Source: Clostridiaceae bacterium
GTDB taxonomy: Bacteria; Bacillota; Clostridia; DSM-8532
Direction: 5' to 3'
Length of the DNA: 34,771 nucleotides
Assembly: GCA_012521615.1 (NCBI GenBank)
Contig: JAAYMA010000096.1
Coordinates: 1 to 34,771, forward strand
Below are positions 16,134 to 33,034 of this stretch, piece by piece (the stretch's first letter is position 1; each line of letters opens with the position of its first letter). The notes below the pieces were generated by a model, which had not been told where the DNA came from, did no database searches, and was given only the letters and a program-made list of their open reading frames with translations. The position numbers and the translations under genes were made by a program.

Positions 16134-17369
16134 TTATTTATTGTCTATTTCAAAGGTTTTGCCTTCCCAGTTGCGGAAGACCGCCTTCTCAGCCCCAAGA
16201 TACATCAGGTAATTCGGCAAAATCGGAGTTTTTCCAAGTCCTCCCGGTCCGTTGACAATATATGTGGGAACCGCCATGCCTGACGTACGTCCTCTCAACG
16301 ACTCCATTATTTCCAAGCCCTCTTCGATACGAACCCAGAAATGTGACGTACCTTTAACAGTCTTCGGATGGAAAATATAGTAGGGCTTTACCCGGATTTT
16401 CAGAAGATTCTGATTTAATTTTCTCACAACATGCGGATCGTTGTTAACCCCGTTTAACAATACCATCTGATTTCCAAGAGGTATACCAGCATTTGCCAGC
16501 CGCTCGCAGGCTTCTTTTGCTTCTTTCGTAATTTCCCTCGGACTGTTGAAATGTGTGTTAACATAGACCGGATGGTATTTTTTCAGTATGTTTACCAGAT
16601 TTTCAGTGATACGCTGGGGTAGAGTCACTGGTGTTCGCGTCCCGAATCTTATAATTTCCACATGGTCGATTTCTCTCAGTGAGCTTAGTAACCTTTCTAT
16701 CATGCTGTCACTGAGCATAAAAGCGTCTCCGCCTGTAATCAACACATCACGGATCTCCTCGTTTTCCCTCACGTATTCTATCGCTTCTTTAATCTGATAC
16801 CAGGACACATTGCTGTCAGTTTCTCCAATTAACCGGCGTCTCTGACAAAAGCGGCAATACATTCCGCACACGTTTGTCACCTTTATAATCAGACGATCAG
16901 GATATCTCCTGGTCACGGAATTAACAGGAGTCCAACCTGCCTCATCCATCGGATCCAAATCTCCCGCAGGATTGAGCTCATCCGGTGACGGTACAGCTTG
17001 CCGCCTGACAGGACAGTTTAAATCATCAGGGTCTATAAGCGACAGATAATACGGCGATATTGCATAACGGTAAGTCTTTCCGACTCTTTCAATGTCAGCT
17101 AAGCTTTCAGGCGATATTCCTATAAGATCCGCAAAATCTCTTATATCGGTAAACCGGTTAGCCATCTGCCATTTGTAGTCGTTCCACTGATCTTCGGTCG
17201 CCCCCAGCCGATCCATTATTTTTTTCTTCTGGACCTTTATCCGCTCCTCATCTTCAAGGCCTGTAAGTATCCTGTCCTTACATTTAATATAATCCGTTAT
17301 CGTATCCTTCAGATGTGCAAACCTGTCGTCCCTTGTTTGATGTGTGATTTTTGCTGTTGCATTTCCCAT
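16134..17369 (-). CDS. eam: glutamate 2,3-aminomutase (radical SAM, PLP)
   Basis: The 411-residue protein is a member of the lysine 2,3-aminomutase family: radical SAM cysteines C168-x3-C172-x2-C175 (CGMYCRFC) and PLP lysine Lys380 in GPGGLGKTP. In lysine aminomutase two aspartates bind the substrate side-chain amino group (Asp293 and Asp330 of the C. subterminale enzyme). Here the equivalent positions are Lys336 and Asn373, 37 residues apart as in the family. I recall Lys332/Asn369 as the pair in the Clostridioides difficile glutamate 2,3-aminomutase. The expected reaction is L-glutamate to L-beta-glutamate, an osmolyte. A c-di-AMP riboswitch upstream agrees with an osmotic role. GGAGGTG lies 11 bases before the ATG. 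Automatic pipelines would probably label it kamA/ablA. Confidence 0.85.
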   Translation of the reverse strand: MGNATAKITHQTRDDRFAHLKDTITDYIKCKDRILTGLEDEERIKVQKKKIMDRLGATEDQWNDYKWQMANRFTDIRDFADLIGISPESLADIERVGKTYRYAISPYYLSLIDPDDLNCPVRRQAVPSPDELNPAGDLDPMDEAGWTPVNSVTRRYPDRLIIKVTNVCGMYCRFCQRRRLIGETDSNVSWYQIKEAIEYVRENEEIRDVLITGGDAFMLSDSMIERLLSSLREIDHVEIIRFGTRTPVTLPQRITENLVNILKKYHPVYVNTHFNSPREITKEAKEACERLANAGIPLGNQMVLLNGVNNDPHVVRKLNQNLLKIRVKPYYIFHPKTVKGTSHFWVRIEEGLEIMESLRGRTSGMAVPTYIVNGPGGLGKTPILPNYLMYLGAEKAVFRNWEGKTFEIDNK

Positions 17370-17644: not shown

Positions 17645-17776
17645 CAAAATACTCCCTTTCCCTTCAAAGCTTCCGAGGTTAGCTGACGGATTCGGGCCGA
17701 AAGGATATTAGCCCTACCGAATTTCGTTATCCACGAAATTCCGGATTCACCCCAAAAATGGTTCCCCCGTATTCTG
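17645..17776 (-). promoter_or_regulatory. ydaO-yuaA (c-di-AMP) riboswitch aptamer
   Basis: Read on the minus strand, conserved blocks of the class appear in order: GGGGGAACC, TTTTTGGGGTGAATC, GGTAGGG, CCCGAATCCGTCAGCTAACC, then CTCGGAAGC and GAAGGGAAAGGGAG. P1 forms from CAGAATAC (17776-17769) and GTATTTTG (17652-17645) with one G-U pair. GCTTTGAAGG (17670-17661) in the aptamer's 3' part can instead pair over 10 bp with CCTTTAAAGC (17644-17635), which overlaps the terminator's first arm. That would be the antiterminator. c-di-AMP binding should release the terminator and switch the downstream aminomutase off. Class identity comes from remembered consensus; the mechanism is inferred. Confidence 0.93.
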
Positions 17777-17849
17777 TCTCGACAGAAATTCAGCCTTATA
17801 GTATTTTAGATAAAATATTTAATTGTTGATGAAGTCATTACAGTATATT

Positions 17850-21635: not shown

Positions 21636-22508
21636 TTAAAGATTTAACTGTTGTTCTAAAAATTTATGAAATCTCTCTATTGATCCGCCAACTCCCATGA
21701 CGTTATCGGGTAAAAGAGTGGTCTCTCCCGAGACATCGAAAAAGTCACAGCCAGAACTTAAAGAAGTTATCATATATGCATCACTGCCAGGTACTCCCTC
21801 GGCTAAGAATCGAAACTCATCGCCCCAAAAGCAGCATTCACTGCTCGTAATACTGTTCTTTTCCACTACATGCTGCATAAAATAATTAACGTTGTCTCCT
21901 TTGGTTGTAATCCCCATTTCCAAATATTTCGCATCGGTTGTTGGAATAATATCAATATCATTTTGTTTTCCGATTTCACGTGCCAGTTCCAGAAGTCCTG
22001 CCAACCCGTCTGTGTAACCATGGATCAGTAGCAAGTCCTGCACTTTGCCAATCTCATCATTCTGAAGGTAAAGCTTATCTTCACGGTCCATGCCAACCAT
22101 TAAATCAACCTTGCAATAATTTGGTCTCGAAAATACAATATCTGTCCTGAAATTATAATGTTTCAGAAGATATTTATGAACATCGAATGCAGCCTTGTCA
22201 ATCCGCAGCCTCATTTCAATATCCGGAACTGCACCCGATAATACAATAAGCTCCCCGGAATCATTAAAGCCTAAATTGAAAGCCCCTCTGCCCAGACCGA
22301 GGTAAAGATTTTTCAGGCAATTGACAGGGATAAGGCTGTGAAGGCTGCCACCTGCTATATTTTCATATGTCGTTCCGCTAATTATGAATAGTTTAATGCC
22401 CTTATCAAGCAATGGAATCATTTTGCTGATAACGTTGTCGACAGGAGATCTGCGGTTTAATACCGCTGTACCATCCCAATCAAAGAAAATAGCTTTATAT
22501 TTTTTCAT
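21636..22508 (-). CDS. HAD-superfamily hydrolase (large-cap phosphatase type) in a GH65 operon
   Basis: The 290-residue protein has HAD motif I FFDWDGTAV (Asp10 nucleophile, Asp12 acid/base), motif II at IISGTT (Ser44), motif III Lys203 (TTKGDNVNYF) and motif IV WGDEF (Asp230, Glu231), with another Asp at 243. A long insert between motifs II and III (~80-195) points to a C2-type cap, as in Cof, sucrose-phosphate and trehalose-6-phosphate phosphatases. The usual partner of a GH65 phosphorylase is beta-phosphoglucomutase, a small C1-capped HAD. This protein takes its place in the operon, directly abutting the GH65 stop codon. It may be a sugar-phosphate phosphatase or an unusual mutase. Confidence 0.8.
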   Translation of the reverse strand: MKKYKAIFFDWDGTAVLNRRSPVDNVISKMIPLLDKGIKLFIISGTTYENIAGGSLHSLIPVNCLKNLYLGLGRGAFNLGFNDSGELIVLSGAVPDIEMRLRIDKAAFDVHKYLLKHYNFRTDIVFSRPNYCKVDLMVGMDREDKLYLQNDEIGKVQDLLLIHGYTDGLAGLLELAREIGKQNDIDIIPTTDAKYLEMGITTKGDNVNYFMQHVVEKNSITSSECCFWGDEFRFLAEGVPGSDAYMITSLSSGCDFFDVSGETTLLPDNVMGVGGSIERFHKFLEQQLNL

Positions 22509-24800
22509 TTATTCATCACCATTTATAGATAATTTAATATGATTATTGCTCTCGTTTAAAATAAATTCAGTATCAGATACTTTTAAGCAAATGTCTTTAC
22601 CATTTGTATGTTTTAAATAAACTTCTGTACTTTTCTGTGAGACATATATTTTAAGAAGATTTCCACAGTACCATATATGAAAGGAAATACTCTTCCATGC
22701 ACGGGGCAAATTCGGTGAAATCTTTAAATGGTATTCATCTACTTGCAGACCTGCAAAACCGAAAACCACCGCTTGCCACGTTCCACCAAAATTAGCAAAG
22801 TGCAACCCGCTTACAGTGTTTAAAAGCACGTTCCTTATATCAAAATTTGCACATACCTTGAAATAATTATAAGCTTCTTCCTGCAGACCAATCTGTGCTG
22901 CCATCACTGCATGTATGCTAAAAGCGAGGGAGCTGTCGAAACAGGTTTTGGGTACATAGTACTTCCATGCATTGACCTTCTGCTGATGGGTAAACCGCCA
23001 GTGCAGATTTTTCATTAAATGCAGCACATCTGCCTGCTTAGTGACCTGATAAAGCATAAGGGCTTCATAGGGGATGGTTGAATCTATTATACGTTTCGAG
23101 GTAGGTTTAGCTTTCTTCATATCAAGAGGCACTCTGGACAGGTACATATCGTCTTCTTCATACAGATCAAGCTCAGCATTGTAACATATGGTAATGTTTT
23201 CAATAATATCATCCCATTTGCTGATTTCTTCCTCACTAAAACTGACTTTGTCTTTCAGGCGCTCCCATTCGGCAGGATATTTTTCTTTCATGAGCTGTAT
23301 CAGAGTTTTTGCCAGAATCAGATTTTGTTGTGCCATCATATTTGTATAAAGGTTATTATTAACAATCACACCATATTCATTTGGACCTCTGACAGCTAAG
23401 ATGTCATACTTTCCGCTAAAGGGATTTTTATGGACCCTGCTTTCCCAGAAGCGGGCCGTTTCCAATAAAATTTCCGCCCCTGCTTCAGTGATAAATTCCT
23501 CATCATGTGTCGCATTCCAATATTCCATGATTGAATATGCAATATCTGCGACTATATGTATGGAGTAATAAGCGCCAACACCGAACGGTGTTTGTTCTAT
23601 ACCCTTCTCGCTTGCCTGCCACGGATACATGGCACCTTTAAACCAATTTCTTTCAGCATGTTTTCTCGCTTCCGGCAGAGTATGATATCTGAATTTCAAT
23701 AAGTTTTGTGCTGCTTTAGGGTTAGTAAATGTAAAGAATGGGAGCATAAAAATTTCTGTGTCCCAAAAAATACAACCTTCATACATTTCACCGGTTAAAC
23801 CTCTTGCTCCGATACTGAGTTTTGAATTGTGTTCCGGGCAGGACTGTATGAGCTGCAAAATGTTGTATCGTATACTGATCTGATCTTCTTCACTGCCTTC
23901 CACAACTATATCTGATACTTCCCATTTTTTATCCCATATAGCTTTATGTTCATCCAGTTTTTCCTGATAGGATACTTCCTCTTCCAATAGTTTCTTTACT
24001 TTTGAAAGCGGATCTTTTTCTCCATCCTTGCTTGTATATACATATATTATCTTTTCAATTTCGCAGCTTTGATTCTCAATACCCCGGTATTCAAATATAT
24101 GGCGGCAATTCATATCAGTGCTGTGAATTAATCCTTCTGCATTCTGAGGGGTTTTAAAATAAACTTTCTGACCTTCTGCAATGGCAATATCTTCATACCC
24201 GTGTATCTCGGTTAAAATACAGTTGGAATCCCGGTAAACCAGATTTAGATGTTTTACCCCCGGCTGCACTGGTAAGGGTTCACTGCTGACCAGATTCAAA
24301 TTTGTCACATCCGCATTGATTCCAACTTCTATACGAATCTTCGGAGAACATCCGATGGGTGTAATACTTATTTTTTGCCCTGCAGTGTGAAGATCACTGC
24401 CACTTATAAACCGTTCAAATTCCAGTCTTAATTTATTTCCGTTGCTGCCTGTCCAAATATAAGAACGGTTGAGTTTTGGGGTCTTCATATCAAGTTGTAT
24501 TTGAAAGTCACTAACCTTTCCCTCATCTGCAATTACCGCCTCATTGTCGGCAAATATTTTTGTACTGTAAAAGTTTGGTGTGTTGACAAGTTCCCGTCCC
24601 TTTCCTTTCCATGGAGTATAGCGCGCAGGTCCGAAAATACCTGCCATATAGATTCCACCCAGTGACAGTATTCCGCTTTGTTCCTCATCAAAAAAGCCAC
24701 GGCAGCACATATATCCATTACCCAGAGTAAAAACAGGCTCAATGCTTGCTCTTTTTTCTTTGTTATATGTTTTATGAGCAAAAATCCAATTGTTATTCAT
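22509..24800 (-). CDS. glycoside hydrolase family 65 disaccharide phosphorylase
   Basis: The 763-residue protein has the GH65 layout: N-terminal beta-sandwich (~1-270), linker helices, an (alpha/alpha)6 catalytic barrel (~310-680) and a C-terminal beta domain. Visible family motifs are TLGNGY, WDTEIFMLPFF (346-356), ERNWFKGAMYPWQ, GPNEYG with the presumed catalytic acid Glu475, KQADVLHLM, and GGTWQAVVFGFAGL. The family splits alpha-glucosides (maltose, trehalose, kojibiose, nigerose and others) with phosphate, giving beta-glucose 1-phosphate. The substrate is not clear. The catalytic motif differs from the common GPDEYH. I start at the ATG five bases after AGGAGG; it overlaps the upstream gene by 8 bases, showing tight coupling. 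Confidence 0.9.
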   Translation of the reverse strand: MNNNWIFAHKTYNKEKRASIEPVFTLGNGYMCCRGFFDEEQSGILSLGGIYMAGIFGPARYTPWKGKGRELVNTPNFYSTKIFADNEAVIADEGKVSDFQIQLDMKTPKLNRSYIWTGSNGNKLRLEFERFISGSDLHTAGQKISITPIGCSPKIRIEVGINADVTNLNLVSSEPLPVQPGVKHLNLVYRDSNCILTEIHGYEDIAIAEGQKVYFKTPQNAEGLIHSTDMNCRHIFEYRGIENQSCEIEKIIYVYTSKDGEKDPLSKVKKLLEEEVSYQEKLDEHKAIWDKKWEVSDIVVEGSEEDQISIRYNILQLIQSCPEHNSKLSIGARGLTGEMYEGCIFWDTEIFMLPFFTFTNPKAAQNLLKFRYHTLPEARKHAERNWFKGAMYPWQASEKGIEQTPFGVGAYYSIHIVADIAYSIMEYWNATHDEEFITEAGAEILLETARFWESRVHKNPFSGKYDILAVRGPNEYGVIVNNNLYTNMMAQQNLILAKTLIQLMKEKYPAEWERLKDKVSFSEEEISKWDDIIENITICYNAELDLYEEDDMYLSRVPLDMKKAKPTSKRIIDSTIPYEALMLYQVTKQADVLHLMKNLHWRFTHQQKVNAWKYYVPKTCFDSSLAFSIHAVMAAQIGLQEEAYNYFKVCANFDIRNVLLNTVSGLHFANFGGTWQAVVFGFAGLQVDEYHLKISPNLPRAWKSISFHIWYCGNLLKIYVSQKSTEVYLKHTNGKDICLKVSDTEFILNESNNHIKLSINGDE

Positions 24801-25794
24801 ATGAACCTCCTTGCCTTTTCCTGAACGGGTCATACTTTAAAAATGCGTCAAGCATGGCTTTCCGCTTAGAGTCAGGGATTCCCAATGCTTCACCATTTCC
24901 GTCATCCATCAGTATGAAACCACCGCTGTCGGTCGCCCAGCAGTCCAGCAATAACCTGGCTTCTTCTGTTATTTCTTCATTACTCTTAAAGGGAAGGGTA
25001 TGCTGAATATCGCATAAGGTTGCAAAACAAACCTTTCCGGCATACTTTTTCCCGATTTCTTCAATACCAAGTACTCGGGGCTGTTGAAGATTAAGAACAT
25101 CAACGCCCACATCAATAAAACCATCTATAAAATTGTTCACCTTGCCGCATGAATGCAACCATACATGCCAACCTGCCTTCTTACACGCATCGAATATTTT
25201 TTTATATCTGGGCTTGAAAAAGTCATTCCACATATCCAGGCTGATAAAGGTATTCAGTTCTGTACCCCAGTCATCGGTACAGTAAAAACCGTCAATTCTG
25301 CCATGAAAACGTTGATCTATATTTCTGATAATTTCAAGGTTGTATTCGACAATTCTGTCAGCAAGATAGGCAATCTTCTCAGGTTCCAGATACAAATCCA
25401 TCAATACATTGTTGAACCCTCTGAGGCTGTGCAAACGCTCAAAAAGCAGCATAAATATTTCAAAAAACACATACTTACCTTCGGCATTTTCACGGTATTG
25501 CTCTTCCATCCCGCTATAAAGCGAGGGGTGGTTCGGATCAGGAAATTTATAGTTTTTTAAATCATCCCAGTCAAGCAAAGGATGGCCTTTTACCTGACCC
25601 ATATTGTCCTGTTCACTTCTTTCCCATAAGCAACCCCACTCGTCATATGACTGACGGGAATTTTCATCTACACCAATAATCTGATTCCACTTCAGATAAA
25701 ATGTATCATCCATGCCGAAATAGCCAAATCGTACCGGCAACCTTGCAGGATTTTTAAATTCAATGGCCCTTCTCACAACTTCCTTACCGGTCAT
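24793..25794 (-). CDS. UroD-fold (uroporphyrinogen decarboxylase/corrinoid methyltransferase family) protein in a sugar operon
   Basis: The 333-residue protein has the UroD/MtaA-like TIM-barrel pattern, including GFYCTDDWGTELNTFIS, WLHSCGKV (His214-x-Cys216), the LNLQQP strand and GGFILMDDGN near the end. In zinc-dependent methyltransferases of this family the H-x-C pair is completed by a distal Cys around this last block. Here that position holds Asp/Gly, so classical methyl transfer is doubtful. Heme synthesis is also unlikely, because the gene sits between the sugar permeases and GH65 and overlaps the GH65 start by 8 bases. Its job in carbohydrate use is unknown to me. GGGGGTG precedes the ATG. 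Confidence 0.82.
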   Translation of the reverse strand: MTGKEVVRRAIEFKNPARLPVRFGYFGMDDTFYLKWNQIIGVDENSRQSYDEWGCLWERSEQDNMGQVKGHPLLDWDDLKNYKFPDPNHPSLYSGMEEQYRENAEGKYVFFEIFMLLFERLHSLRGFNNVLMDLYLEPEKIAYLADRIVEYNLEIIRNIDQRFHGRIDGFYCTDDWGTELNTFISLDMWNDFFKPRYKKIFDACKKAGWHVWLHSCGKVNNFIDGFIDVGVDVLNLQQPRVLGIEEIGKKYAGKVCFATLCDIQHTLPFKSNEEITEEARLLLDCWATDSGGFILMDDGNGEALGIPDSKRKAMLDAFLKYDPFRKRQGGSYE

Positions 25795-25821
25795 GTAAAC
25801 ACCCCCAGATTCTCAAACTCA

Positions 25822-26643
25822 CTATCCCTTCATGGCTCCCGCCACTATGCCGCTGATTACATACTTTTGCAGAACAATATACAGAATCACCATGGGCAAA
25901 GAAGCCAAAACCAGTGTGGCTGTAATTACGTCCCAATCACTTCCGAACTTTCCAAACATCTGATAAACAGCAATGGTAACTGTTTGCTTCTCGGGATTAT
26001 TCAGGATCAAAAAAGGTAAAAGGAAATCATTCCATGTCCAGATTGCATATAGTACTGCAACACTGCTCATAATGGGTTTCAGCAGTGGAACAATAATCCT
26101 TGTGTATATTCTGAATTCGCCGCATCCGTCAATTCTGGCCGATTCATCCAGTTCCACAGGTATGGTTTTGACAAATCCATGAAACATGAAGAACGCAAAA
26201 CTGCTTGATGATATTGATATCAAAGCCACTCCGGACAACGTGTTCATCAGTTTCATTTTTGTTATAAGCTGTACCAGCGGTATCATGTACGTATAGAACG
26301 GAATAAGGAATGGCACGGTATATAGAAGGTATAGAAATTTGCTCAATTTACTTTTTACTCTGGAAAGCTTATAACCTGCCATGGATGTAACAAGCAATAC
26401 TCCGGCAACTGTCATAAAGGTTAAAACAATATTATTGAATAATCTTCTTATAAACCCCGACGAACTAAAGGCTGTGATATAGTTGTCCAAATAAAGACTT
26501 TTTGGAAAAGCCAAACATGACTCAAACATATCTTTAAAAGGTTTAAAAGAATTGATAACAATCAGATAAATGGGAAAAAGATATAGAATCAAGGCAACAA
26601 TCAAGAACACATACATGATTACTCTACCTGCTGTTTTTACCAT
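25822..26643 (-). CDS. carbohydrate ABC transporter permease, MalG type
   Basis: The 273-residue protein has six predicted membrane helices and the permease EAA loop (ELDESARIDGCGEFRIYTRI, then IVPLLKP), where the ATPase docks. The ending YVISGIVAGAMKG is typical of the second permease of CUT1 sugar importers. Its ATG overlaps the stop of the first permease by one base (TAATG), indicating translational coupling. No ATPase gene is present in the operon; CUT1 systems in Firmicutes often share an MsmX-like ATPase encoded elsewhere. The cargo is presumably the glucoside cleaved by the downstream GH65 enzyme. Confidence 0.93.
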   Translation of the reverse strand: MVKTAGRVIMYVFLIVALILYLFPIYLIVINSFKPFKDMFESCLAFPKSLYLDNYITAFSSSGFIRRLFNNIVLTFMTVAGVLLVTSMAGYKLSRVKSKLSKFLYLLYTVPFLIPFYTYMIPLVQLITKMKLMNTLSGVALISISSSSFAFFMFHGFVKTIPVELDESARIDGCGEFRIYTRIIVPLLKPIMSSVAVLYAIWTWNDFLLPFLILNNPEKQTVTIAVYQMFGKFGSDWDVITATLVLASLPMVILYIVLQKYVISGIVAGAMKG

Positions 26644-27536
26644 TATGCCTCCACCTCTTTTGACTTAAAATAGCTGAGCTGAATAAAAGAGACAACCATA
26701 ATTATCAGCGCAAGCACTACTGCCTTTGCCGTACCATAACCATACAGATTAGCTGAACCGAACGCTTCATTATAAATATTAACGGCAATGGTTTCTGTGG
26801 CATATCCAGGTCCTCCGGAAGTTAGTACAAAGATAGATTCAAATACCTTCAAAGAACCGGCAAGGCATGTAAAAACGCAGATAGTTACACTTGGCATTAA
26901 TAAGGGAAATTTAATATATCGGAATTTCTTCCATCCTGAAGCTCCATCAATTGTTGCCGCTTCCAGTATATATTGATCAATTGATTGTATTCCTGCAATA
27001 TAGATCAGCATATAATAACCCATACCATGCCAGACACTCATAAAAATAACCGATATAAGCGCAATTTTATGGCTACCCAGAAAATCCAGATTGAAAAAAC
27101 CTATATTGGTTAACTGATATATATTTGTAGCGATTTTTGTGTAAATAAACTTCCATGAGAACCCTACCACTACCAGACTAAAAATATATGGTACAAAAAA
27201 CAGGGTTCTGAGCATAGATTTTATCTTTACGGAATTTTCAATAAATAATGCTAAGCCTAATCCAACAACGTTTGAAATCAATACAGTGGCTACAGTGTAT
27301 TTCCCTGTTACAATAAGCGAGTTAATAAATCTTTTGTCATTTGTAAAAGCCTCAATATAATTAGCCAGGCCGATAAATCTTACATTTGAACTTATTCCGT
27401 TCCAATCGGTAAATGAGTAAAAAGCCCCCTGCACAAGAGGAAACAGTAGAAATATTATGTATAAAACAGTAAACGGAGCAATAAATAACAGCAACGATGA
27501 CAGATCCTTAAGTTTTTTCCTATATGATAAGTTCAT
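26643..27536 (-). CDS. carbohydrate ABC transporter permease, MalF type
   Basis: The 297-residue protein has six membrane helices and the EAA loop ILEAATIDGASGWKKFRYIK followed by FPLLMPS. The N-terminal FPLVQGAFYSFTDWNG is characteristic of the first permease of CUT1 importers. The frame is open 48 codons further upstream, overlapping the binding-protein gene. I choose the ATG at 27536, preceded by AAAGGTGAT, since homologs begin there and the extension would run through a 12-bp hairpin. It lies between the binding protein and MalG-type genes in the normal order. Confidence 0.93.
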   Translation of the reverse strand: MNLSYRKKLKDLSSLLLFIAPFTVLYIIFLLFPLVQGAFYSFTDWNGISSNVRFIGLANYIEAFTNDKRFINSLIVTGKYTVATVLISNVVGLGLALFIENSVKIKSMLRTLFFVPYIFSLVVVGFSWKFIYTKIATNIYQLTNIGFFNLDFLGSHKIALISVIFMSVWHGMGYYMLIYIAGIQSIDQYILEAATIDGASGWKKFRYIKFPLLMPSVTICVFTCLAGSLKVFESIFVLTSGGPGYATETIAVNIYNEAFGSANLYGYGTAKAVVLALIIMVVSFIQLSYFKSKEVEA

Positions 27537-27580
27537 TAATAAATCACCTTTTCTGATAACTACACCATAAAACTTATTAA

Positions 27581-27619
27581 ATAGACCGGTAAGAGCAAAA
27601 TTCGCCATTACCGGTCTAT
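27581..27619 (-). terminator. intra-operon hairpin after the binding-protein gene
   Basis: ATAGACCGGTAA (27581-27592) and TTACCGGTCTAT (27608-27619) form a perfect 12-bp stem with a 15-base loop. It starts 12 bases after the binding-protein stop, and on the minus strand TTTAATAAGTTTT follows. Such a hairpin can partly terminate or protect the 3' end so that the binding protein is made in excess over the permeases. The moderate U-tract fits a leaky terminator. Confidence 0.75.
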
Positions 27620-27630
27620 GCCTTAATTGT

Positions 27631-28950
27631 TTAATTGACTGTTTTTGCCCATTGATTATCAAGATCTTCGAAGAATTCATCCAGTGTTATGGATCCTGAG
27701 AAGTAAGCCTGTATATTTTTACCCACTACATCCATAATTCCTGGTGCCCAGAAATTCCAGGCAAACGGAACTGCCTTATTTCCATCATTAACCCATTTAT
27801 TAGCGTCTGCAGCAAAAGGATTAAGTTCTATAACAGGTTTCAGAGAAGAAGTTGACGGTGTTTTTGTAATGCTGCCCAGATACTCGGCTCCCTCTTTCGA
27901 CAGCATCCACTTAATAAATGCTACCGCAGCCTCTTTGTTCTCACTTTGCTCTGATACGAAAAGAATCTCGGCTGAGTCTGCCATTATGGCTGATTCTGCA
28001 GGATCTTCACTTACAGGAAGTCCCATCATCCCAAGATTGGCATTTGGATCAATCTTCTGTGTCTCCTCGTAAGCCCAATCACCCTGAACAGCCATTGCAG
28101 CAGTACCGGCGGCAAGCTGATGACACATTTCAGCAAAATCACTGGATAGTGGTTTATCTCCACTGTTTTCATAAATAAAGTCAAAGAGCTCGAACATTTT
28201 TTCGGTGCGCTCAGTTCTGAAAGAGGCCTTTCCTTCATTCATTGCGTTATACCAGCCCATCATATCATCCATGACCGGAGTCTGAGCAAACCAGAAGAGG
28301 TCATAACATACCCACTGATCCTTCAAGCCCGATGTGAATGGCTGAACTCCGATAGCTTTTATTTTCTCAACCGCTTCTTTTAATGCAGATATGGTTCTTG
28401 GAATTTCAGTAATTCCGGCTTTTTCAAATACGTCCTTGTTGTACAGCAATCCAAGACTTTGCATTATTGTCGGAATTCCATATTGCCTGCCATCTTTCTT
28501 TCCTGACTCAAGGAAATTCGGAAAGACTATACTATCAAAACTTTCATTTGATAAATCAGCTACTTTATTATCTTCTACAAAAGGTACCATTGCCAGGTAA
28601 CCCTGCCAGCTAAATATATCAGGTGCATTTGAGGAAGCCATTTGTGTTTTGAGAACTGCTTCATAATTATCAGAAATGTGTTCGATTATCACGTTAATTT
28701 TGGGATGTACTTTATGTAACTCTTCATTTATGGCGTCTGAATTTTTTGCATATAAAGGTTGCGATGTAAGATAGGTTATTGTAGCAGAGATTTCGTTATC
28801 AGTGCTGTCGTTGCTATCGGTTTTACTATCTGTCTGATCTGTCTGATTCTGTCCATCCGGGGTGCTCACTGGAGCCTGCGACTTGGCACAACCCGCTGCC
28901 ATAGTTAATAGCAGCACAACTACCAGGAAAAAAGCCATCAGCTTTTTCAT
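27631..28950 (-). CDS. carbohydrate ABC transporter substrate-binding lipoprotein
   Basis: The 439-residue protein has a lipoprotein signal peptide with the lipobox TMAAGC (Cys21), then a low-complexity Asp/Ser/Thr/Gln spacer (~25-55) and a periplasmic-type sugar-binding fold: ITYLTSQPLYAKN, NAPDIFSWQGYL, YGIPTIMQSLGLLYNKDVFEKAGI and AMAVQGDWAY. It delivers sugar to the two downstream permeases. It resembles maltose/multiple-sugar binding proteins (family 1), but the ligand cannot be named. AGGGAGG precedes the ATG. A palindromic sequence 55-79 bases upstream may be a control site. The sensor-regulator pair lies immediately upstream on the same strand. Confidence 0.93.
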   Translation of the reverse strand: MKKLMAFFLVVVLLLTMAAGCAKSQAPVSTPDGQNQTDQTDSKTDSNDSTDNEISATITYLTSQPLYAKNSDAINEELHKVHPKINVIIEHISDNYEAVLKTQMASSNAPDIFSWQGYLAMVPFVEDNKVADLSNESFDSIVFPNFLESGKKDGRQYGIPTIMQSLGLLYNKDVFEKAGITEIPRTISALKEAVEKIKAIGVQPFTSGLKDQWVCYDLFWFAQTPVMDDMMGWYNAMNEGKASFRTERTEKMFELFDFIYENSGDKPLSSDFAEMCHQLAAGTAAMAVQGDWAYEETQKIDPNANLGMMGLPVSEDPAESAIMADSAEILFVSEQSENKEAAVAFIKWMLSKEGAEYLGSITKTPSTSSLKPVIELNPFAADANKWVNDGNKAVPFAWNFWAPGIMDVVGKNIQAYFSGSITLDEFFEDLDNQWAKTVN

Positions 28951-29004
28951 TGTGATTCCTCCCTATTAAGTTTTCCGCATAATAGAAAACAATTGTGACT
29001 ATAG

Positions 29005-29029
29005 ACCTTTATAAGTGCACTTAAAAGGT
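29005..29029. promoter_or_regulatory. operator-like palindrome upstream of the transporter operon
   Basis: A perfect 12-bp palindrome, TAAGTGCACTTA (29012-29023), is flanked by ACCTTT and AAAGGT arms, so the inverted repeat spans 25 bases with one base of asymmetry. It lies in the 159-bp gap before the binding-protein gene. It is a candidate binding site for the neighbouring AraC-type response regulator or another regulator. It does not match the catabolite-repression cre pattern. Confidence 0.45.
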
Positions 29030-29109
29030 TTATATAAACTTAATTCTTATTTTAGAAGATATATTTTGAATAATGAATGTATAATATGAAGAGAAACTTG
29101 TAAAAAATT

Positions 29110-30684
29110 TCAGCCTATTTTGAATTCCCGCGGGGTCATTCCAGTATATTTTTTAAACATTTTACTAAAATGGCTTTCATCCGTGAAAGCTAATGCTTCT
29201 ACAATTTCTGAAACTTTCATCCGGTCTTCAATTAAAAGCAACTTGGCCTTTCTTATTTTTAATTCCATAAAATATGCATACGGTGATACCCCAAACTGCA
29301 TTTTGAATGTCTTCATAAGATGCTGCTTACTTATTCCGAATTTAAATGCTATATCATCGAGAAGTATTTTAGACGCATAATGCTTTTCAATATAATCCCT
29401 GACTTTGAAAGCAATATTCCTGCTATTTTGATTAATCTGATCAGAAAGATTATTTACACAGAATTCTTCTATACTTTTACATACATACCCGATATCCCAG
29501 GCATTATCAATTTTAATTCTCAACCCGTTCAATTCACTTATTAAATCACCATTATCTGAGCAAAAGTAATATTCTATGACGTTTGTTACAATATCATTTA
29601 TTTTGCTGAAATTCAGGATACAAAAGCTGTCCTGCTCCAAGTCCTCTTTATATATATTCTGTACTGCGTTTGTAACTTTTTTTATATCTCCGCTGTTAAA
29701 TGCAGATATAAGGATTTTTTCTATTTCGGCAGTCTTGGAGTCTACAATCACCGACTGTTTTAGAAGCTTGGAATAAAACTGAAGGCTGCACTTTTGATTA
29801 AGGTTCATTCTCAGTACAGTGTATTTTGCTTCTTCAAAAGAATCCCTGATATGATATATTCCGCAATACTCATTGCCAATCCCGCAAATCGTATCAACTC
29901 CCAAATGTTCTTTTACTGATAGCATAATTCTTTTCAATATATTTTGAATAGTTTCATTGGATACATCATTATATAATACTTGAACAATCTCGTTATTTTG
30001 TGGAACAGGAATTGCAGTTCCATTGGTATTAAGCAGTTCATTTACAATTTTTGCTGTTTCACTTAATAAAGCACGGGAATCCGAGTTATACCTGTCTTTA
30101 CAAACCTCATTAAAGTTTATTAGCCTCATTAGTCCAACTCTTACACTCTTTACTTCCTGTTTTTCACTTAATCCAAGACAGGTCAGAAGTTCACCCTCTT
30201 CAACACGCACTCCGTGAATAAACCTGTTAAAAACGCTTTCACTTACCAACAACGAATCTTTCTTTAACCGCTCATCAATATAACGTTCTCTTTTTTCCAA
30301 TCTCCTTTTTTCTTCAATTTCCCGGATTCCTTTTTTCAGAGCTTCATTCAAGTCCTTTTCATCAATGGGTTTTAAAATATAATCTATAACCCTGGAGTTT
30401 ATGGCCTGCTTCATATATTGAAAATCATCAAATCCGGATATTATAATTATCTTTGTATCCGGGTAGCCCGTGCTTATATGCTTAATGAGATCTGCACCAT
30501 TTATTCCGGGCATCTTCATATCAGTTATAACAATGTTAGGTTTATGTATTTTAATCAATTCACACAGGTCATCACCGTTTTCTGCCTGTGCGACAATTTC
30601 AAGTTCCAGCTTATCCCAGTTTCCTTTTTTAACAATTACCTTCCGAACCTTTGGTTCGTCGTCAGCAATAATTACTTTCAACAT
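29110..30684 (-). CDS. YesN-type response regulator, AraC-family output domain
   Basis: The 524-residue protein has a receiver domain (~1-120) with acidic residues Asp8 and Asp9, phospho-acceptor Asp55 (VITDMKMPG) and Lys105 (LKPID). A poorly conserved middle region (~130-410) follows, and then a double helix-turn-helix AraC DNA-binding domain (~420-524) ending DESHFSKMFKKYTGMTPREF. Such regulators pair with YesM-type kinases and control sugar-uptake operons. The kinase gene is 16 bases upstream and the transporter operon directly downstream. I start at MLKVIIADDEP, after AAGGGGTG; the frame extends ten codons further without a site. Confidence 0.93.
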   Translation of the reverse strand: MLKVIIADDEPKVRKVIVKKGNWDKLELEIVAQAENGDDLCELIKIHKPNIVITDMKMPGINGADLIKHISTGYPDTKIIIISGFDDFQYMKQAINSRVIDYILKPIDEKDLNEALKKGIREIEEKRRLEKRERYIDERLKKDSLLVSESVFNRFIHGVRVEEGELLTCLGLSEKQEVKSVRVGLMRLINFNEVCKDRYNSDSRALLSETAKIVNELLNTNGTAIPVPQNNEIVQVLYNDVSNETIQNILKRIMLSVKEHLGVDTICGIGNEYCGIYHIRDSFEEAKYTVLRMNLNQKCSLQFYSKLLKQSVIVDSKTAEIEKILISAFNSGDIKKVTNAVQNIYKEDLEQDSFCILNFSKINDIVTNVIEYYFCSDNGDLISELNGLRIKIDNAWDIGYVCKSIEEFCVNNLSDQINQNSRNIAFKVRDYIEKHYASKILLDDIAFKFGISKQHLMKTFKMQFGVSPYAYFMELKIRKAKLLLIEDRMKVSEIVEALAFTDESHFSKMFKKYTGMTPREFKIG

Positions 30685-30700
30685 GCTCTGCACCCCTTTC

Positions 30701-32512
30701 TCAGCCAAGAACATTATTTTCTGTTGGAATGTTCAGCCTGACTTCTACTCCCTGCATTTTGTCAGAGGTAATATGCATGCTGAATTTTTTATCATATAAC
30801 AGGAGCATCCTTTGATAAACATTATAAAGTCCGATTTTTTTATCATCTTCATCTGACAAATGTTCATTGTAACTGTTAAAATATTTTTGCAGTTTATCAA
30901 TGTCTTCCTGCTTCATACCGACACCGTTATCCCTGACAATAACAGAGCAAAAACCTTCTTCCAGTTGGCAGAGGATGCTGATATTTCCGGGTGTTTTTAA
31001 TTTTTCGATACCATGAACGATTGAATTCTCAACTATTGGCTGAAGTATTAACTTAGGTACTTTTACAGTATAGAGCTCTTCTGGAATATTAATCGAATAA
31101 TTCAACTTATCTTCAAATCTGAATTTTTGAAGTGCAAGATAATTCTCAACATTGTTTATTTCATCTTTCAACGTAACAATGTTTCCGCCCGACTTTACCG
31201 TATATCTGAGCATACTCGACAACGACATCAGCATATTATCCACTTCATATACTTCTTTCTCACAGGCTACGCTTCCTATTGCCTGCAGAGTATTGTAAAG
31301 AAAATGGGGATTAATCTGCGCATGAAGTGACTCGAGCTGGGCATCCTTAAACTTAAGCCTCAGCTGAAATCTCTCTTTTATTAACTGCCCTATTTGCTCA
31401 GTCATATAATTAAATGTATTTGAAATCTGCCCAATTTCATCTTGACTTCGAACATGGGATCTGACCGAAAAATCTCCTTTACTGACTTGAATCATGCAAT
31501 TTTCAATTATTTTAAGCGGTTTTGTTATATAAAACGAGAACGTTACTATAACAATTACAAGCATTAGTACGATAATACTGCTTATAAATATTATCGTGTT
31601 TTTCAGTTTTTCTGCCTGATATGTAATATTTCTCATCGACACAATCTGTAATAACATAGTATTATGTATGTCTGATTTATTGAACAGCACTAATAAAGTT
31701 TGCCCTGTTTGTTCATCGAGATATTGTAAATCACCTTCTTTTTCACCGTTGTCCCGTAAAATTTCAAGTAAATCAGGTGTAATATGATCATACATATCTG
31801 TTTCAGATTTGCAAATGATTTTTCCATCTTCATTGAGCAATAATATTTGTACAAAATCGTTTACTAAAGTATCCTGAATCATTTTTTTCAAAGCATCCAT
31901 TCTATAGTTTATGGATAATACAAAAGAAGGCGTCTGATATTCAACCACGCATCGGTTTATTGAAAATACCGGTGTTTTATCGTCAAGACCATAATCACTG
32001 TTGTAATTTTCCAACAGGTGTTCCGGCTCAAGAACCATCTGGTTAGGCGACATTAATACTCTCTGGTACCAATCTCTTTCTTCAATTTCTCCTGCATTTT
32101 TAAAAGATCTGTTTGTTATACGATTTATTACATATAATTCTTGTTTTTCAGTTATATATAAGAGTACAGAGTCAGTTTCACGTTTTTGCAAAAACAGGTT
32201 CTGCAGCTTTCTTATTTTATAATTATATACTTTCAACTCATCACTGTCGGAGTAATACTCAGGTAAGAAGAGTATATCCGCATACATCGAGAAGGAAATG
32301 TCATTCAGGCTTTGAAAATATTCATCTGTTCTTTCGCTAAGCTGGTTTAACAATGTCGAACTGTTTTCAACATATATTTTTTGCACCTCTTTTGCAAAAA
32401 TATTGTAGGATATAATTACAACCATACCAAAGAAGAGCACCACTAATGAAACAATTGTGATAATCAGTTTATAGCTTAGATGTGAATTTACAGCTTTCCA
32501 TAATGATTTCAT
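30701..32512 (-). CDS. YesM-type sensor histidine kinase
   Basis: The 603-residue membrane kinase has helix 1 (~14-37), a ~255-residue extracytoplasmic sensor region of dCache-like size, helix 2 (~306-327), a HAMP linker (~328-380), the His_kinase dimerisation block HAQINPHFLYNTLQAIGS with His403, and an ATPase domain with PIVENSIVHGI and VRDNGVGM. It probably senses an extracellular sugar, or sugar bound to the lipoprotein, and phosphorylates the response regulator encoded next. I use the ATG at 32512, eight bases after GGGGG; an upstream in-frame TTG overlaps this ribosome site. The pair heads the whole carbohydrate locus. Confidence 0.93.
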   Translation of the reverse strand: MKSLWKAVNSHLSYKLIITIVSLVVLFFGMVVIISYNIFAKEVQKIYVENSSTLLNQLSERTDEYFQSLNDISFSMYADILFLPEYYSDSDELKVYNYKIRKLQNLFLQKRETDSVLLYITEKQELYVINRITNRSFKNAGEIEERDWYQRVLMSPNQMVLEPEHLLENYNSDYGLDDKTPVFSINRCVVEYQTPSFVLSINYRMDALKKMIQDTLVNDFVQILLLNEDGKIICKSETDMYDHITPDLLEILRDNGEKEGDLQYLDEQTGQTLLVLFNKSDIHNTMLLQIVSMRNITYQAEKLKNTIIFISSIIVLMLVIVIVTFSFYITKPLKIIENCMIQVSKGDFSVRSHVRSQDEIGQISNTFNYMTEQIGQLIKERFQLRLKFKDAQLESLHAQINPHFLYNTLQAIGSVACEKEVYEVDNMLMSLSSMLRYTVKSGGNIVTLKDEINNVENYLALQKFRFEDKLNYSINIPEELYTVKVPKLILQPIVENSIVHGIEKLKTPGNISILCQLEEGFCSVIVRDNGVGMKQEDIDKLQKYFNSYNEHLSDEDDKKIGLYNVYQRMLLLYDKKFSMHITSDKMQGVEVRLNIPTENNVLG

Positions 32513-33034
32513 AAGAACTGCCCCCAAACATTACAACAATCCGAGGCTAAGGCATTATTCAGTTAATAGTAAACCATTATAATACAGCTCATTGCAGAAA
32601 GACTATTATTCTCTTAAAAACTTCTATATTTGATTAATCGCTGCTAATTCTTTTTCTGCTTTAGATATTAAATAATTAAGATAAATTTTTATAATAACCA
32701 TTAATCTTTATGATTTTCTATATTACTATTGTAGGATATATTTGACCTGTTTTGCAATTGATGTTTTGGGCTGATTGATATTTTTAAAAAACTCAAAGAT
32801 AACCTTCCACTTCTATAAAAAGGAGACATCAGGCAAATAACTGCACTACAACAATTGTATTACTGTTCAGTATAAATTTGATGTTTTTTCTGCAAGCATT
32901 TATTTGTCTTGTTTAGTAACAAAAATGATGATATTCACATCAAATATGATACAATTCTATATGCGGAATTAGTCTTTGGAATAACGAATTTTTGAAAACA
33001 GAAAATAAACGAAGTACGGAGGATGTGAAACATT
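32513..33034. other. 522-bp AT-rich divergent intergenic region
   Basis: This stretch separates the divergent kinase and thioesterase genes. On the minus strand a TATAAT (32581-32576) could serve the kinase, but no good -35 is visible. A TACAAT at 32950-32955 might serve the thioesterase, again with a poor -35. AAAAGGAG near 32818-32825 is not followed by a start codon. I see no riboswitch, RNA gene or convincing small gene. Confidence 0.4.

Follow-up and report, generated by a model that had tools for sequence, protein, structure and literature searches.

The window, a 34,771-nucleotide stretch of a Clostridiaceae contig, carries on its minus strand an operon that runs from 32527 to 21636 and ends in a GH65 glycoside phosphorylase and a HAD-superfamily protein. 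In order of transcription it encodes a sensor histidine kinase (30701–32527; Pfam HAMP, His_kinase and HATPase_c), a response regulator with an AraC-type DNA-binding domain (29110–30714; Pfam Response_reg and AraC HTH), an extracellular sugar-binding lipoprotein (27631–28950; Pfam SBP_bac_1), a first (26643–27680) and a second (25822–26643) ABC sugar permease (both Pfam BPD_transp_1, and, like the lipoprotein, also assigned by NCBIfam), a UroD-fold protein of the MtaA/HemE superfamily (24793–25794; Pfam and predicted structure), an inverting α-glucoside phosphorylase of GH65 (22509–24800; 763 residues, identified by Pfam and by alignment to solved relatives), and finally the partner of the GH65 enzyme, a C2-capped HAD proposed from its motifs, model and gene neighborhoods to be a β-glucose 1-phosphate mutase (or phosphatase) (21636–22508). 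The gene order, strand and tight junctions given in an earlier note on this DNA all match the sequence: the UroD-like gene overlaps the GH65 gene, which starts with the ATG at 24800, by 8 bases, and the GH65 gene directly abuts the HAD gene with no gap. Pfam domains identify the "kinase" of that note as the sensor histidine kinase, which starts either at the TTG at 32527 or at the ATG at 32512 chosen there. The real start of the first permease is probably downstream of the called one, because the called open reading frame overlaps the binding-protein gene by 50 bases. No ABC ATPase gene lies within the operon. The operon is complete, and from the predicted functions of its products it would sense, import and phosphorolyse its substrate.

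The GH65 protein matches the N-terminal, middle and C-terminal Pfam domains of the family above cut-off (PF03636, PF03632 and PF03633, with E-values of 1e-42, 9e-102 and 1e-9, respectively), and its nearest solved sequence relatives are kojibiose and maltose phosphorylases. The active site was read from an alignment to 3wiq, 1h54 and 4ktp, with residue roles taken from the literature (PMC8626586). The glucose-binding W, D, K and Q of subsite −1 and the acid Glu are intact, and the phosphate site consists of S, S, H and R, the arginine being present in 4ktp as well. Since subsite −1, the acid and the phosphate site are all kept, the enzyme should be a phosphorylase that yields β-glucose 1-phosphate, and the intact phosphate site rules out a hydrolase. 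At the six positions that report on specificity in this family (64, 392, 394, 402, 416 and 585; PMC8537180), the fingerprint is EQSP-P, which differs from both motifs used for comparison, EEAPxx of kojibiose phosphorylase and KV[MF]NES of maltose phosphorylase. An Asn replaces the Asp just before the acid Glu, a change found elsewhere in the set only in the syntenic locus L033 and in Hungatella (L073). A separate departure is seen in Croceivirga, where a HAD-linked GH65 (L041:10896-13091) has Gln at the expected position of the catalytic acid Glu.

The HAD protein reaches the cut-off of no Pfam or NCBIfam model. Its motif residues D10/D12, T46, K203 and G229-D230 are invariant across 44 relatives, with 34–36 residues between motif I (D10/D12) and motif II (T46) and a cap at residues ~85–185. 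The small helical C1 cap that β-phosphoglucomutase (β-PGM) has between motifs I and II is not present, and the protein is a large C2-capped HAD rather than a C1-capped one. In the NCBIfam scan it does not match the β-PGM model TIGR01990, nor is there a Trehalose_PPase match, so that the family scans rule out both an ordinary β-PGM and a trehalose-phosphatase; a comparison with the phosphomannomutase (PMM) family PF03332 gave nothing at E-values up to 1. The predicted structure (pLDDT 94.8) has as its top match in the PDB 4bnd (E 3e-12, TM-scores 0.61/0.68), an atypical HAD-type α-phosphoglucomutase that resembles eukaryotic phosphomannomutases, followed by IMP-nucleotidases and then by phosphomannomutases and sugar phosphatases. 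With 4bnd, its best solved fold, the protein shares a C2-type cap layout and the HAD motifs, but the two are only 14% identical, the family match is missing as described above, and the window's protein would need to use the β rather than the α anomer.

The association between this HAD and GH65 extends well beyond the window. No HAD homolog was found in 60 close relatives of the window's genome; in 399 genomes of the phylum, the window's own genome aside, the homologs are the N-terminal parts of proteins of ~1140 residues, the rest of which is GH65. A scan of named genomes with the HAD gave 75 loci, 71 of them testable, the HAD lying at a contig end in the other four. GH65 is beside or fused to the HAD in 69 of the 71 (68 within 1.2 kb, L107 just beyond), and the only HADs without it are those of Roseburia faecis (L069), where a transposase gene upstream was recognized by eye, and of Dojkabacteria (L072). 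The pairing is far beyond chance. Fusions of ~1000–1280 residues occur in Bacillota, Chloroflexota, Actinomycetota and Bdellovibrionota, and the HAD tree splits into two deep groups, one of stand-alone genes beside GH65 (mostly Bacillota) and one that holds the fusions and spans the same four phyla and Dormiibacterota. From the pairing at these loci and the two deep groups of the tree, the association of the HAD with GH65 is real and ancient. A plasmid search with the HAD gave no match. Mycobacterial OtsB1/Rv2006 also has HAD domains ahead of a GH65 domain in a single polypeptide, as the fusions do; it differs in being larger and annotated as trehalose-phosphatase-like. Rv2006/OtsB1 is 1327 residues long and of unknown function (PMC11046441).

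In the operons of maltose, trehalose and kojibiose phosphorylases that pair GH65 with β-PGM, an ABC importer and an intact GH65 site are likewise accompanied by a HAD-superfamily sugar-phosphate enzyme, but the HAD described here belongs to a different family with a different type of cap, and the β-PGM probe found no β-PGM in any of the 75 HAD loci. The same probe does find the genuine β-PGM of the window's own genome, the only TIGR01990 match above cut-off there, which lies on contig C66, 4–6 kb from two other GH65 genes, in a classical GH65 and β-PGM locus. Across 13 named genomes, with HAD-linked GH65 copies assigned by hand from contig and coordinates, a β-PGM lies within 10 kb of 0 of 13 HAD-linked GH65 genes versus 7 of 14 others (Fisher p 0.006), and β-PGM above the curated cut-off is present in 8/8 genomes with an additional GH65 versus 1/5 in which the sole GH65 is HAD-linked (p 0.007), p-values that overstate independence, since the compared genomes are related, and serve as guides only. 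Eisenbergiella porci, Extibacter muris, Robinsoniella peoriensis and Blautia sp. MSJ-19 each have a HAD-linked sole GH65 and no β-PGM above cut-off. At least five acceptor fingerprints occur among the HAD-linked GH65s (EEAPxx, the one most fusions have; SRIT-H and TRIT-H, both from Lachnospiraceae; EEQTYG; EMAD-G; and EQSP-P in the window), and the HAD family stays constant; therefore the substrate of the HAD should most likely be the product that all these phosphorylases are predicted to share, β-glucose 1-phosphate. The same pattern disfavors action on the acceptor part. The earlier note had suggested a new route for the phosphate product, which is supported by the 69 of 71 linkage and the missing β-PGM, and proves more general than a single locus could reveal.

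We put at roughly 0.68 the probability that this is a sense-import-phosphorolyse operon with a C2-capped HAD in place of β-PGM. The two-component system would sense an α-glucoside and the ABC importer would take it up; GH65 would then use phosphate to cleave it to β-glucose 1-phosphate and the acceptor, and the HAD would process β-glucose 1-phosphate instead of a C1-capped β-PGM, most likely by isomerizing it to glucose 6-phosphate. The UroD-like protein would be a lineage-specific accessory outside this conserved core. The layout of the operon, the active site of the phosphorylase and the pattern of HAD in place of β-PGM are evident from the sequences; what the acceptor is and which reaction the HAD carries out are inferred. 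Besides the relatedness of the genomes compared, several observations weigh against this reading. Paenibacillus (G458) has one GH65, which is HAD-linked, and yet two β-PGMs, and the window's own genome carries the β-PGM noted above. In the HAD itself, fold matches have TM-scores of only ~0.6, and IMP-nucleotidases, which are phosphatases, come nearly as close as 4bnd. Profile matches to PMM and α-phosphoglucomutase in the PDB are weak (E 0.005–0.06), and although R128, N130 and K133, candidates in the cap for holding the second phosphate, are invariant or nearly so, the alignment of the cap with bacterial PMM is unreliable, the comparison sample being the single PMM-type protein found in 300 genomes of the phylum.

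As to its chemistry, we infer that the HAD is a mutase in preference to a phosphatase, by odds of about three to two, because the nearest solved fold is the phosphoglucomutase 4bnd. A parallel arrangement is found at L148:383-3334, where ManA, a PMM-type C2 HAD and a GH130 mannoside phosphorylase are consecutive, an order that recalls the GH65-HAD pairing and would make sense for a mutase. As a phosphatase, the HAD would release glucose and phosphate from β-glucose 1-phosphate and pull the reversible phosphorolysis one way, a kinase then phosphorylating the glucose. Members of the HAD superfamily are mostly phosphatases, every phosphatase motif is intact in this protein, and C2-capped phosphatases join the IMP-nucleotidases near it in fold; there is also a precedent in a GH65, glucosylglycerol phosphorylase, that itself hydrolyzes β-glucose 1-phosphate (PMC3899277). 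Such a route would, however, waste the energy gained by phosphorolysis, a phosphohexomutase gives the top match among solved folds, and no sugar kinase is recognized in the operon; we consider this route unlikely, though by no means negligible. An isomerizing HAD would permit a bolder and more tentative proposal, to which we give somewhat less than even odds, that the family is a second, independently evolved β-phosphoglucomutase, C2-capped and PMM-like, which gut and environmental bacteria use in their GH65 pathways in place of the C1-capped enzyme and which is sometimes fused to the phosphorylase. If so, the fused form would be a bifunctional phosphorylase-mutase that converts a disaccharide and phosphate directly to glucose and glucose 6-phosphate.

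The earlier note had called both of the last two partners unexpected and had raised the possibility that the pathway processes a methylated glucoside. The first point holds for the large-cap HAD, which is not β-PGM, but does not hold for the UroD-like gene, which is absent from nearly all, though not all, related operons: the UroD-GH65-HAD triple recurs in only one of the 75 HAD loci, that of an otherwise fully syntenic metagenome-assembled genome (L033) with 84% HAD identity. This rarity rules out UroD as a conserved partner, and the gene is incidental to the GH65-HAD unit. The protein matches Pfam URO-D (E 1e-9), and its model has the UroD fold, the nearest structure being the MtaA methyltransferase (4ay8/4ay7). 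It shares its fold and H-x-C motif with the MtaA/CmuA methylcobamide methyltransferases and HemE, but it differs from them in falling below the family cut-offs. In NCBIfam it misses that of MtaA (TIGR01463, 30.6 of 235.4 bits, with other MtaA-family models lower), and only MtaA-type models are listed, with no match to the HemE equivalog. H214-x-C216 is invariant, Gln occupies position 238, and there is no equivalent of the C-terminal Cys. The zinc ligands of MtaA we take to be His, Cys, Glu and Cys, so that two of the four are replaced. Neither a corrinoid protein nor an activase is encoded in the operon, and no B12-binding_2 protein is found on the window's contig (C105); the genome's two such corrinoid proteins are on contig C115.

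A reading in line with the earlier note is that the UroD-like protein would demethylate a modified glucoside, which GH65 would then cleave. The nearness of the model to MtaA, the conserved H214-x-C216, the 8-base overlap with GH65 and the presence of corrinoid proteins in the genome speak for it, but the zinc site is only partially of MtaA type, the MtaA-family cut-offs are far from reached, the corrinoid proteins are encoded elsewhere, 74 of the 75 HAD loci do without UroD, and its homologs sit in many unrelated sugar operons, next to genes for a GH38, GH2 or GH35 enzyme, an aldolase or binding proteins. Demethylation was accordingly not borne out and appears very improbable. Four genomes (G015, G021, G034 and G059) show large expansions of UroD-like proteins, with 22 to 25 matches per genome.

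A different gene recurs more often at these loci. A PIG-L de-N-acetylase is found in 20 of the 75 HAD loci, often in the slot between permease and GH65 that UroD occupies here, and at another position of the locus in others (examples are L038:6655-7518, L064:6734-7609, L073:10818-11759, L043:15916-19023 and L035:13792-17877). Some of these proteins are large and secreted; those in the UroD slot are intracellular. M60 and GH98 proteins lie near PIG-L in some loci. NagB comes directly after the HAD in Roseburia (L069), and in L066 it lies two genes further on. Because of the PIG-L genes and of NagB after the HAD, the acceptor in these relatives is probably an acetylated amino sugar. The same genes could instead point to a pathway for amino-sugar glycosides, in which PIG-L would deacetylate an N-acetylhexosamine, GH65 would phosphorolyse the glycoside, and the HAD, acting on an amino-sugar phosphate, would together with NagB lead to fructose 6-phosphate; the M60 and GH98 neighbors, which suggest mucin-type glycans, would fit with this. 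However, the glucose-recognizing subsite −1 of GH65 is unchanged, which disfavors an amino sugar as donor and makes it more likely the acceptor. In most fusions the GH65 part has the EEAP fingerprint of kojibiose phosphorylase, and the loci of the fused GH65s yielded no PIG-L. The window's operon also lacks PIG-L, the only copy in the genome being on contig C86 (L122:5707-7702), where it adjoins a gene for a SIS-domain protein. We regard this amino-sugar pathway, with the HAD acting on an amino-sugar phosphate, as improbable.

β-PGM is generally regarded as the usual companion of GH65 phosphorylases, and these data indicate that an uncharacterized HAD family substitutes for it in many Lachnospiraceae and is fused to GH65 in several further phyla. 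Searches of open-access full text gave no paper on the GH65/C2-HAD pair among the top-ranked results, and none on GH65 with UroD or with PIG-L. If the proposed role is right, the annotation of many unnamed HADs would be corrected, the presence of a GH65 pathway without β-PGM in the gut species Extibacter muris, Robinsoniella and Blautia would be explained, and the HAD-GH65 fusion would be a ready-made bifunctional catalyst. The loci also flag an uncharacterized GH65 specificity tied to de-N-acetylases near mucin-type enzymes.

Elsewhere in the window, a c-di-AMP (ydaO) riboswitch (17653–17805, minus strand) immediately precedes a gene for lysine 2,3-aminomutase (16134–17369, minus strand), beside which no acetyltransferase gene was recognized. 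The riboswitch could tie c-di-AMP to synthesis of the osmolyte β-lysine.
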